Assembly (NCBI GenBank): GCA_027051265.1
Contig: JALTZH010000051.1
Coordinates: 1-5,169 of the forward strand
Source of the DNA: an archaeon
Lineage (GTDB): Archaea > Hydrothermarchaeota > Hydrothermarchaeia > JALTZZ01 > JALUTC01
Reading direction: 5' to 3'
DNA: 5,169 nucleotides
The notes below the pieces were generated by a model. The model had not been told where the DNA came from. It was given only the letters and a program-made list of their open reading frames with translations, and did no database searches. How positions within the stretch are numbered: the stretch's first letter is position 1; each line of letters opens with the position of its first letter. The position numbers and the translations under genes were made by a program. This document shows, one piece after another, positions 1,755 to 5,169 of the stretch.

Positions 1755-2405
1755 TTATTTATTTAAATATTTTTTTAATGATGGTATAATAATTTGAGAC
1801 CATGATTCAAGATCATAATTACCTGACATTATCATTCATTCTAAAGTGCTTAAAGTAACAAATTCTCAGTTATCAAGCTCTCAATCTAATAATTCAAAAT
1901 CTGAATTTGCAACTCTTACAATATAAAAAATTCACATATGTACTTTTCAAACGTCATTTCAGTCATCATTTATATATCATGCTAAATGAATATTTTTAAT
2001 ATTTTCTTCTTTAGTATTAATTTCTTCAATAATTTCTCTTACTAAAGTGTCAGACAAAATATTTTTAGCATCTTCATCTTCTCTTTCAATATGTCACCCA
2101 ACTCAAATAGAAATCTTTGAATGCAATCTTGTTTCTCATGCATTACTTCAACTTCACCCTCTTTGATATACAAATATTCTATTCTCTTGATCTATCACAA
2201 CTCAATATGGAAGAGGTTGTTTAAAATCAGTATTTACTTCTGCATCAGCTCTTACCATAAATTCATAATTATCTACCATAACTTTTCAAAAATTGTATTC
2301 ACTAGCATCATAAAATCTTGTTTCTCTTGGAAAATCTTTAAAAATAGTACCTGCATTAACAACCATTATTTCTCTTTGCATTTTATCTTTTACTATTTGA
2401 TTCAT
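1755..2405 (-). CDS. Nudix hydrolase, COG4112-like, UGA read as glycine
   Basis: Reading UGA as Gly gives a complete 216-residue protein from ATG at 2405 to TAA at 1755-1757, with 14 UGA codons, 4 GGN glycines and one UGG. It matches my memory of the COG4112 group (predicted MutT/Nudix phosphoesterase). Landmarks are a KQPLPYGVV strand (62-70), VYQRGG (79-84), SIGVGGHI (99-106), the Nudix core REIIEE (123-128), and an INDDGNDVGKVHMG segment (145-158) close to the family's INDDSN-VG-VH-G motif. Many conserved glycines here are UGA, including those in GVGGHI and VGKVHMG, which is strong independent evidence for the code. The loop between GGHI and REIIEE is longer than in classic MutT. The substrate is unknown; the family hydrolyses nucleoside-diphosphate-linked compounds. 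An AAGGAAG sequence lies about 13 nt before the chosen ATG. Met9 is an alternative start without an obvious ribosome binding site. The surface protein gene begins 14 nt downstream, so the two are probably one operon. Confidence 0.85.
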
Positions 2406-2443
2406 TTTATTTTTAACACTTCCTTATAATTAATATTTTTTCC
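2402..2443. other. Probable junction between code-25 bacterial DNA and archaeal DNA
   Basis: Left of this interval both genes need UGA as Gly and the DNA is extremely AT-rich. Right of it, more than 800 codons of CooS-like and mevalonate kinase genes contain no in-frame UGA, and gene content and promoter look archaeal. The bounds are the Nudix start codon at 2405 and the last GGA glycine codon of the truncated regulator-like frame at about 2441-2443. The exact breakpoint cannot be fixed by reading, because the intervening sequence is A/T-rich and could belong to either side. Assembly chimerism is the simplest explanation; recent transfer is the alternative. Confidence 0.65.
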
Positions 2444-2611
2444 TTCTAGCTTCTTCAAAAATTCTCCTATAGGACAATTCAACCTTATTTCAAATAAATT
2501 TGCTATCGTATCTTGATAGGCATTGCATCGTAAAAGTTTTGCACTCTTTATGTTTGAATTCTTCAATACACAACTCTCCGGATGAACCAATCTAAGTTTT
2601 ATCTCTAACAT
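2402..2611 (-). CDS. Truncated N-terminal fragment of a putative archaeal regulator
   Basis: ATG at 2611 opens a 69-codon frame that starts 20 nt after the CooS-like stop codon. The start (MLEIKLRLVHPESC) and the following LLRCNAYQDTIANLFEIR and FLKKLEGKNI stretches recall the N-terminal ligand-sensing half of archaeal bacterio-opsin-activator (HTH_10) type regulators, which often begin with a V-x-L-R-x-x-H-P-x-C-W-like pattern. This is recognition by eye only. Those proteins are usually around 200 residues or more with a C-terminal helix-turn-helix. No such domain is present here, so the frame is probably cut at the junction. Its apparent UGA stop (2402-2404) overlaps the Nudix start codon as ATGA. 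That looks like translational coupling but is likely an accident of the join, and in code 25 the UGA would be read as Gly with a stop two codons later. No ribosome binding site is visible. It could instead be a genuine small protein of unknown function. Confidence 0.45.
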   Translation of the reverse strand: MLEIKLRLVHPESCVLKNSNIKSAKLLRCNAYQDTIANLFEIRLNCPIGEFLKKLEGKNINYKEVLKIK

Positions 2612-2631: not shown

Positions 2632-4503
2632 TTATGTGCTGAGATTTAATCTCTTTCTCTTTTCTACAATCACGTTCTCTATTATCTCTGCAGCTTTTAT
2701 TGGATTATCTTCCAATATTAACTTCCCGCCAGTTAATCTTTCAACATCTTCGGTCAATAACTTAACCAAATCCTTTGCTCCAGTAACTGGTGGTATTGGA
2801 GAAACATGAACTGTTAAACCATATGCTATTGCAAATATTGCATCGATGGTGGCCTTTTGCTCCATATATTCTGGTGCAGATGCAACGACGGGTAAATCTG
2901 GAATATCAACGTTTAATTTATCGGCAACAATTCTTGCTAGATATGCAACCCTTCCAGTATCCGTACATGTTCCAAAGCTCAATACGGGTGGTATCTTTAA
3001 CTCATTGCAAGCTTTTCTTAGACCATTTCCTGCAAGATTTATAGCTTCTAAAGAAGTTAATCCAGAAACTTGTAATGCAGCATTGCCACATCCCATGCTT
3101 AATATTAGTATGTTTCTTTTTATCAATTCCTTTGCCAACGTAACCGTATTGTAATCATGTGGACCATTTCTTAATGTGGTACATGATACTAGTGCAACTA
3201 TCCCTTTAATATCTCCCTTAACAATATAATCTAAGACCTTATCCAAAACCCCCTCAATCACTTCTATTGAGAATCCTGCAATTATTTTCTTCTTCTTATC
3301 TGGTATTTTGTATGAGTTCTTTTTCCTTCTCTTAAAGTTTTCAATCGCTCTATTTACGATTTCTCTAACAATTTCTTCAATGTTCTCAGGTTTATAATCA
3401 AGGCCTGAATCAACACCCCTCAACCTGACCAATCTATTTACAGGTATGATTTCAAAGTTGTATTTATCTGCATATTCTTTCAGTGATGGTAATGTACAAT
3501 TCATATCTGTTGCAAAAACATCTATTGCACCTGTTGCAAGTAAAAATTCCTGAAATATCCAATTTCCAACTAGACCTGAGAAATTTTTGTCTCCAATTCT
3601 TTGAATCATTTCTTGACCAGTTTCAATCGAACCAATAATTCTTACTCCTTTCGCACCAACTTTTCTTGCAGCTTCTTGAACGTCTTCTCTCTTAATATAT
3701 TCAAGCAATGCAAATGCTACGAATGGTTCATGACCGTTAACTGCAATGTTTACATATTCTGGGTCAATTATTCCCAAATCTACATAAGCTTCATGAGGTT
3801 TTGGCGTTCCAAATAGTATATCTTGAATTATTTCGAGAGGTAACTGACATGCTAAACATGTTGCAATTGCCAACCTCATTCCCTTTTTTGCTAACGATAT
3901 ATAATTCGTATCAATATTTGTCATCGATGATGTTGCTGCGTCGAGAATTTCATGTAAAACACCACCTGGAAATATTCCCAATTCCTTCCATATTCTCTTC
4001 CTCTTCTCTGGAGCAAATATTTCAACGAGTTTACTTTCTTCTTGAGAATATCTATGTAAGTCTTCCCATATGAAATTTGCAACATCCATTGCTATCTCTT
4101 TTATATCTCTTCCTTCAGTTTTTATTCCAAGTTTTTTGGCAAACCATATTAATTTCTCCTTATCTTTTATATCGAACATTTTCGATTTATTTTCTGCAAC
4201 TGCTTTAAGTGTTTTAATTGCTTCGATTGCATGATGCGTATATGCTGATGCACCCAATATATGTCTATGAAGCATATTTCTCATTGCCATTGCATTTGCA
4301 TCTATTCCACAAGCCCCATATTCTGTGTTCTTCATTATTCTACAAGGTCCCATGCTGCAAAGTTGACAGCTCAAACCTTGCATGCAAAATATGCATTTGT
4401 TTTTCTGTTTTTCATATCTATCGAAAACATTCGTTAATCCAGATTCTTTCACAATTTTATACATTTCTTCGACCGATTCGTGATAGCTGCGAGACATATT
4501 CAT
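2632..4503 (-). CDS. cooS: CooS-family Ni/Fe carbon monoxide dehydrogenase homologue with altered active site
   Basis: Full-length (623 residues, family usual about 620-640) cytoplasmic anaerobic CODH homologue. Family members form homodimers that interconvert CO and CO2. Compared from memory with Carboxydothermus CODH-II: C46, C49, C54 and C65 are the B-cluster ligands. C37-x2-C40 fits the CX2C type of D-cluster described for Desulfovibrio vulgaris CODH. Of the C-cluster ligands, H258, C336, C441, C472 and C513 align with H261, C333, C446, C476 and C526, and K550 with catalytic K563. The Cys295 position is E294 (motif GSIETGQE instead of GICCTGNE) and His93 is Y88; the proton-relay positions 99 and 102 are E94 and K97. 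Loss of a C-cluster Cys recalls CooS-V of C. hydrogenoformans, which carries a Fe/S/O hybrid cluster and lacks CODH activity. No cooC, cooF or acetyl-CoA synthase gene is adjacent. ATG 4503 is preferred over Met3 because GAAGGA lies upstream. There are no in-frame UGA codons. Confidence 0.93.
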   Translation of the reverse strand: MNMSRSYHESVEEMYKIVKESGLTNVFDRYEKQKNKCIFCMQGLSCQLCSMGPCRIMKNTEYGACGIDANAMAMRNMLHRHILGASAYTHHAIEAIKTLKAVAENKSKMFDIKDKEKLIWFAKKLGIKTEGRDIKEIAMDVANFIWEDLHRYSQEESKLVEIFAPEKRKRIWKELGIFPGGVLHEILDAATSSMTNIDTNYISLAKKGMRLAIATCLACQLPLEIIQDILFGTPKPHEAYVDLGIIDPEYVNIAVNGHEPFVAFALLEYIKREDVQEAARKVGAKGVRIIGSIETGQEMIQRIGDKNFSGLVGNWIFQEFLLATGAIDVFATDMNCTLPSLKEYADKYNFEIIPVNRLVRLRGVDSGLDYKPENIEEIVREIVNRAIENFKRRKKNSYKIPDKKKKIIAGFSIEVIEGVLDKVLDYIVKGDIKGIVALVSCTTLRNGPHDYNTVTLAKELIKRNILILSMGCGNAALQVSGLTSLEAINLAGNGLRKACNELKIPPVLSFGTCTDTGRVAYLARIVADKLNVDIPDLPVVASAPEYMEQKATIDAIFAIAYGLTVHVSPIPPVTGAKDLVKLLTEDVERLTGGKLILEDNPIKAAEIIENVIVEKRKRLNLST

Positions 4504-4577: not shown

Positions 4578-5169
4578 ATGCTTGAAGTTAGAGCTCCGTT
4601 AAAAGTTATATTATTTGGTGAGCATGCCGTCGTTTATAATAGGCCATGTATTGCAATGGCGATAAATAAATATGTTAGAGTAAAGATTAAAAAGAGGAAC
4701 GATTCTTCGATAATAATTCGTTCCAAAAATTTTGGAATAGAACTAAGAAAAGATATTGATAACATTTATGATAATTCCTTACCCTATGTTACAACTGCTA
4801 TTGAAGAAGTCTTCAAATATTTAGATACGCGTTTTGGAATTGAGATTGAAATTGAAACGGAAGCTCCGATTTCAAGTGGTTTAGGAAGTTCTGCAGCAGT
4901 ATCTGTTTCTACAATATATTCAATACTTAAGATTTATGGCTATGAACCAAAGAAAAGAGAGGTATCAAATCTGGCATATAATGTTGAGTTAAAAGTTCAG
5001 GGAAAAGCTTCGAGAACGGATACATATATATCAACGCATGGTGGTATTCATTTTATAAGAGGAAATAACTTTGAGAGAATAAATTCTAAAATTTCATTAG
5101 TAATATTAGATTCGGGAGTTAAAAGAAGTACGAGACTATTGGTTAATATGGTTAAAAGGATGTATGAAA
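4578..5169 (+). CDS. mvk: Mevalonate kinase, archaeal type (3' end beyond window)
   Basis: GHMP-family kinase that phosphorylates mevalonate to 5-phosphomevalonate using ATP, the step after HMG-CoA reductase in isoprenoid (archaeal membrane lipid) synthesis in the cytoplasm. The 197 codons present show motif 1 (APLKVILFGEHAVVY, residues 6-20, with K9), the glycine-rich phosphate-binding motif 2 (PISSGLGSSAA, 97-107), and the segment ELKVQGKASRTDTYISTHGG (137-156), whose Asp148 matches the catalytic Asp of the family. The ASxTDT form, rather than PSGxD, is typical of archaeal mevalonate kinases as I remember them. LDSGVKRST (178-185) follows. The C-terminal third, including motif 3, lies beyond the window; archaeal homologues are around 300 residues. 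The ATG at 4578 lies directly before the conserved motif and leaves little room for another start. No in-frame UGA. Read divergently from the CooS-like gene. Confidence 0.93.
   Translation, partial: MLEVRAPLKVILFGEHAVVYNRPCIAMAINKYVRVKIKKRNDSSIIIRSKNFGIELRKDIDNIYDNSLPYVTTAIEEVFKYLDTRFGIEIEIETEAPISSGLGSSAAVSVSTIYSILKIYGYEPKKREVSNLAYNVELKVQGKASRTDTYISTHGGIHFIRGNNFERINSKISLVILDSGVKRSTRLLVNMVKRMYE

Follow-up and report, generated by a model that had tools for sequence, protein, structure and literature searches.

A CooS homologue from Hydrothermarchaeota with glutamate at the Cys295 position: an archaeal member of structural group D-1 that probably carries a hybrid cluster

Nickel-dependent CO dehydrogenases (CODHs) and their relatives share the CooS scaffold, and a gene that matches the family profile is readily annotated as a CODH. 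The 5,169-nucleotide stretch of hydrothermarchaeal DNA analysed here (hereafter, the window) holds such a gene, the product of which has glutamate where CO-oxidising enzymes have the second cysteine of the motif G-x-C-C-T-G-x-E, i.e. Cys295 of CODH-II. Does this protein oxidise CO, or does it belong to the cooS relatives that have exchanged CO chemistry for another function? A sequence-only reading had noticed the glutamate and had proposed a hybrid-cluster protein, possibly linked to nitrogen or redox stress, rather than a CODH.

The gene is full-length (837.8 bits against TIGR01702 in a profile search). Its position and those of the residues on which the argument depends are as follows, all on the (-) strand:

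2632..4503, (-): CooS of structural group D-1 (CooS-V type), 623 aa (TIGR01702; PDB 7b7q match; tree; model)
4309..4395, (-): Cys37 and 40 of the type III D-cluster; Cys46, 49, 54 and 65 of the B-cluster
4240..4242, (-): Tyr88, where CO-oxidising CODHs carry the acid-base His93 (alignment)
3730..3732, (-): His258, cluster ligand, equivalent to His259 of CooS-V (alignment)
3622..3624, (-): Glu294, codon GAA, equivalent to Cys295 of CODH-II and Glu295 of CooS-V (alignments; PMC9311411)
3496..3501, (-): Asn335-Cys336, matching Asn337-Cys338 of CooS-V, whereas the CO-oxidising CODHs in the alignment read Gln-Cys
3181..3183, (-): Cys441, equivalent to Cys449 of CooS-V (alignment)
3088..3090, (-): Cys472, equivalent to Cys480 of CooS-V (alignment)
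2965..2967, (-): Cys513, equivalent to the persulfide Cys521 of CooS-V (alignment)
2854..2862, (-): Glu548-Gln-Lys550, ending in the catalytic Lys and starting with a Glu equivalent to Glu494 of hybrid cluster protein (HCP) and Glu556 of CooS-V

Alignment to solved CODHs confirms both that Glu294, within GSIETGQE (residues 291–298), occupies the Cys295 position and that His258, Cys336, Cys441, Cys472 and Cys513 coincide with the remaining C-cluster ligands. The codon GAA (3624–3622) differs from both cysteine codons at all three positions, so that a single base error is no explanation. The sequence-only reading had left room for a nearby cysteine replacing Cys295; there is none between residues 219 and 336, and the role of position 294 is therefore not taken over by a neighbouring Cys.

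The exchange is not a novel deviation. As the sequence-only reading missed, Cys295→Glu is a known defining trait of a described group: it is a synapomorphy of the CooS-V subclade, which belongs to SSN cluster III (Jeoung 2022, PMC9311411), and for Inoue 2019 (PMC6344411) the marks of structural group D-1 are this exchange, a type III D-cluster, a Tyr where the acid-base His would be and, as in HCP, a Glu at position −2 from the catalytic Lys. The window CooS shares every listed sequence feature of D-1, and we found none that sets it apart: the first C-cluster Cys (295) is Glu294, Cys37 and Cys40 (the latter at the Gly41 position) form the type III D-cluster, Tyr88 stands at His93, and Lys550 is kept with Glu548 two residues earlier. 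The Cys295 and His93 of the CO-oxidising Ni-CODHs (clades E/F) are represented by Glu294 and Tyr88.

Among solved structures, CooS-V of Carboxydothermus hydrogenoformans (PDB 7B7Q, 7B7T, 7B95, 7B97 and 7B9A; identity 51–52%) is the nearest, with 678.8 bits for 7b7q against 454 for the next PDB entry, Thermococcus AM4 CooS. The CooS-V motif, GSIESGQE, has the same Cys→Glu exchange, and the two proteins have in common all cluster ligands, an Asn before the first cluster Cys, Glu-x-Lys and the type III D-cluster. Unlike CooS-V, the window protein is archaeal, and its gene is flanked by genes for mevalonate kinase and an HTH_10-type regulator. An AlphaFold2 model built from a 40-row alignment (pLDDT 94, pTM 0.93) has CooS-V as its top structural match (Z 60.2, rmsd 1.2 Å over 619 residues) and as the first hit in a Foldseek search (2.6e-68). 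True CODHs follow at Z 49–59, those at Z 54–59 being nearly as close as CooS-V, so that the fold alone is undecisive and the residues and the tree decide. HCP is a more distant comparison: as presented by Inoue 2019 (PMC6344411), its hybrid-cluster ligand set, which includes the equivalents of Glu268 and Glu494, is the same, and the fold of the class III dimer (PDB 7E0L) is related to the model (Z 30), but the model is much nearer to the CODH scaffold (Z 60). The HCP models TIGR01703 and NF003658 score the window protein at 50.9 and 51.7 bits, far under their curated cut-offs of 360.8 and 367.

A first set of 83 full-length sequences (the window, 80 loci and two second copies) has Glu at the position of residue 294 in 81, a figure that leans towards Glu because part of the retrieval of the 80 loci used a Glu-containing pattern. 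This recurrence and the three-base codon difference rule out base error or chance as the source of Glu294. The sequences from a TIGR01702 search of the phylum, which is free of that bias, fall cleanly into D-1 with Glu and canonical CooS with Cys, and many genomes carry one of each, the canonical copy with GICCTGNE. In a 107-row tree, a quick search with SH-aLRT support only and no bootstrap, the 91 Glu rows, including the window and PDB 7b7q, are set apart from all other rows by a branch with support 100. The window branch is longish (0.51) and groups within the Glu clade with Hydrothermarchaeota and Archaeoglobi, in a 38-row set (support 98) that also holds CooS-V. Placement among proven CO oxidisers, the other outcome for which the sequence-only reading had left room, was not seen; residues and tree both rule it out.

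The two sequences without Glu are second CooS copies beside the D-1 gene in two loci of Candidatus Methanoperedens (L067 and L070, 446–2401 (-) in each) and represent a different clade-D paralogue. They keep Tyr88, Asn335 and Glu548-Gln-Lys550, and differ in having Cys294 (GSMCTGQE) and Gly40. In these residues they match the published D-4 group; the combination resembles what would have preceded the Cys→Glu exchange and may represent an evolutionary intermediate.

What such a protein may do is best judged from CooS-V, the one member of the group that has been tested. It binds a nickel-free [4Fe-3S-nO] cluster, has no CO/CO2 activity and shows no detectable NO reduction, and its reduction of hydroxylamine is very slow, with a kcat/KM of 20 per M per s (PMC9311411). 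In reduced CooS-V, His, Glu295 and Cys521 are the ligands of Fe4 and Glu556 is that of Fe3, and on oxidation a Cys persulfide and oxo bridges form and the gas channel shuts (PMC9311411). By homology, the window CooS would form a homodimer built on the CODH scaffold, bridged by a [2Fe-2S] D-cluster and equipped with a [4Fe-4S] B-cluster, and the old C-cluster site would hold an Fe/S/O hybrid cluster that lacks nickel and is ligated by His258, Glu294, Cys336, Cys441, Cys472, Cys513 and Glu548. Electrons would enter via the D- and B-clusters; upon reduction, the persulfide sulfur of Cys513 would shift into the cluster, Glu294 and His258 would grasp the exo iron, and the gas channel would open. 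A small oxidant could then bind at the open cluster and be reduced, whereas CO and CO2 would not be interconverted.

The preference of the sequence-only reading for a hybrid-cluster protein over a CODH is well supported by homology, with sequence, tree and fold all pointing to the CooS-V (D-1) clade. The opposing view, in which Glu294 replaces Cys295 as the unique-iron ligand of a true Ni-CODH that still oxidises CO, can appeal to the retention of five of the six C-cluster ligands and of the catalytic Lys550, to the TIGR01702 annotation as CODH and to genetic work in Methanosarcina acetivorans that, according to Inoue 2019 (PMC6344411), hinted at a role of a D-1 enzyme in CO oxidation; in conflict with that record, a 2026 eLife survey assigns the CODHs of M. 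acetivorans to clade A. CooS-V, however, has the same residues and lacks both nickel and CO/CO2 activity, and CODH-II C295E loses nickel and CO oxidation while gaining slight hydroxylamine reductase activity (PMC9311411); moreover, the acid-base His93 is Tyr in the window CooS, and the cooS of Archaeoglobus fulgidus, a clade D gene according to PMC13056359, is not induced by CO. We consider a CO-oxidising enzyme very improbable. The window gene very probably encodes an archaeal D-1 (CooS-V type) CooS with a hybrid cluster and without CO/CO2 interconversion. We found no biochemistry in the literature on the window protein or on any archaeal D-1 protein.

The contig itself is chimeric. The features around CooS are:

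4578..5169, (+): mevalonate kinase, divergent from CooS, running off the contig end (TIGR00549, 160 bits)
2402..2611, (-): HTH_10-type regulator, first 69 codons, cut at the chimeric joint (regulator profile match; homologue on contig C33 of the same bin)
2405–1755, (-): NUDIX protein (match with code 25)
1740–4, (-): type IV pilin-like protein with BspA-like repeats

DNA similarity between the window and C33 stops at window position 2411, inside the regulator. The frames left of 2405 stay open only if 48 TGA codons are read as sense, at residues fitting Gly, whereas none of the 41 Gly codons of CooS is TGA, and GC differs between the two contig halves (0.27 vs 0.35). From the TGA usage and the GC difference, we infer that positions 1 to about 2405 come from a bacterium resembling Gracilibacteria/Absconditabacteria (TGA=Gly), and that the CooS half is archaeal. 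The window offers no functional operon: the mevalonate kinase gene is divergent and no obvious partner, and the genes in 1–2405 are those of another organism. Scans of the window for sigma-70 promoters and terminators gave no excess over shuffles, as expected for archaea.

The host bin (1.46 Mb, 257 contigs) falls in the phylum of Ca. Hydrothermarchaeota, with Ca. Pyrohabitans JdFR-16 (locus L007), and in the same order as isolate S141 scaf2bin.181 (locus L006), also Ca. Hydrothermarchaeota. It encodes a CdhA (contig C85), separate from CooS, and neither a recognisable HCP nor a canonical CooS was found in it; D-1 CooS would thus be its sole kind of hybrid-cluster protein. Two D-1 versions are present, the second being 80–83% identical to the window CooS and split between the ends of contigs C27 and C33 (L091, L092), with residue 294 in the part left unassembled between them. 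The divergent mevalonate kinase–CooS pair recurs on C27 (mevalonate kinase 62%), and on C33 an intact 204-aa HTH_10-type regulator (L092:482-1135) lies just downstream of the CooS end. This second locus may reflect mixed related organisms or a duplication. A chimeric contig and a bin with two versions of the locus might suggest that the window CooS is an assembly artefact or a degenerate copy, an idea that is scarcely credible and, for the CooS gene itself, refuted: the 623-codon frame is whole with all functional residues present, the joint (about 2405–2411) leaves the gene untouched, and the glutamate is found in independent genomes.

Clues to the role come from the neighbours of D-1 genes in relatives; of these neighbours the window itself holds only the truncated regulator, and the stress-related ones are seen in relatives rather than in the host genome. 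In eight ANME/Methanosarcinaceae loci (L042, L043, L045, L049, L050, L059, L060 and L073), genes for rubrerythrin, flavodiiron protein and the catalytic chain of ferredoxin–thioredoxin reductase (FTR) lie in this order upstream of CooS on one strand; a ninth such locus is truncated. The proteins encoded there deal with peroxide, O2/NO and thiol redox. The HTH_10 family directly adjoins CooS in 9 of the 80 named loci (Archaeoglobi, Alkanophagales, Methanosarcinales and others), and all clear family members in those 80 loci are located at CooS; three cysteines are conserved across the members in an alignment. Elsewhere, a V4R/ArsR-type regulator is found at CooS in seven loci of Thermoplasmata and a CRP-type regulator in three bacteria. 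The regulators beside CooS in relatives are thus of redox or effector type. All these counts are of loci that are not independent and come from few lineages. Rubrerythrin and flavodiiron protein are not mentioned in the main text of Inoue 2019 (PMC6344411), and that of the 2026 eLife survey describes no clear pattern in clade D.

The archaeal neighbour genes favour a redox-stress role, and the most likely function would be low-potential reduction of reactive nitrogen or oxygen species, or redox sensing, in stress defence. The nitrogen part of the stress role put forward by the sequence-only reading finds little backing, given the poor hydroxylamine turnover and undetected NO reduction of CooS-V; the neighbours in relatives favour oxidative/nitrosative stress. 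Tentatively, and aware that it may well prove wrong, we propose that archaeal D-1 CooS is a reductase or sensor dedicated to oxidative/nitrosative stress. In ANME/Methanosarcinaceae it would be co-expressed with rubrerythrin, flavodiiron protein and FTR, in Archaeoglobi and Hydrothermarchaeota it would be under the control of an HTH_10 regulator that bears cysteines, and in HCP-less archaea such as the host it would be the sole hybrid-cluster protein. That the protein is no enzyme at all, and senses redox state or NO/O2 while signalling through the adjacent HTH_10 regulator, is unlikely. The adjacency in the nine named loci, on C33 and, truncated, in the window, the absence of strong family members elsewhere in those loci, the low turnover of CooS-V (PMC9311411) and the regulatory roles suggested for clade D in the eLife survey all speak for such a sensor; yet other lineages pair the gene with different regulators or none, regulators beside enzymes are commonplace, and a redox-gated substrate channel suggests a reductase.

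D-1 genes are annotated as CO dehydrogenases and may be counted as evidence for CO use, as cooS was for Hydrothermarchaeota (PMC6775978). Since the only CooS-type copies in the host bin are of the D-1 group, they are not to be read as CO oxidation. The genes that accompany D-1 CooS in relatives provide a testable lead on its role.
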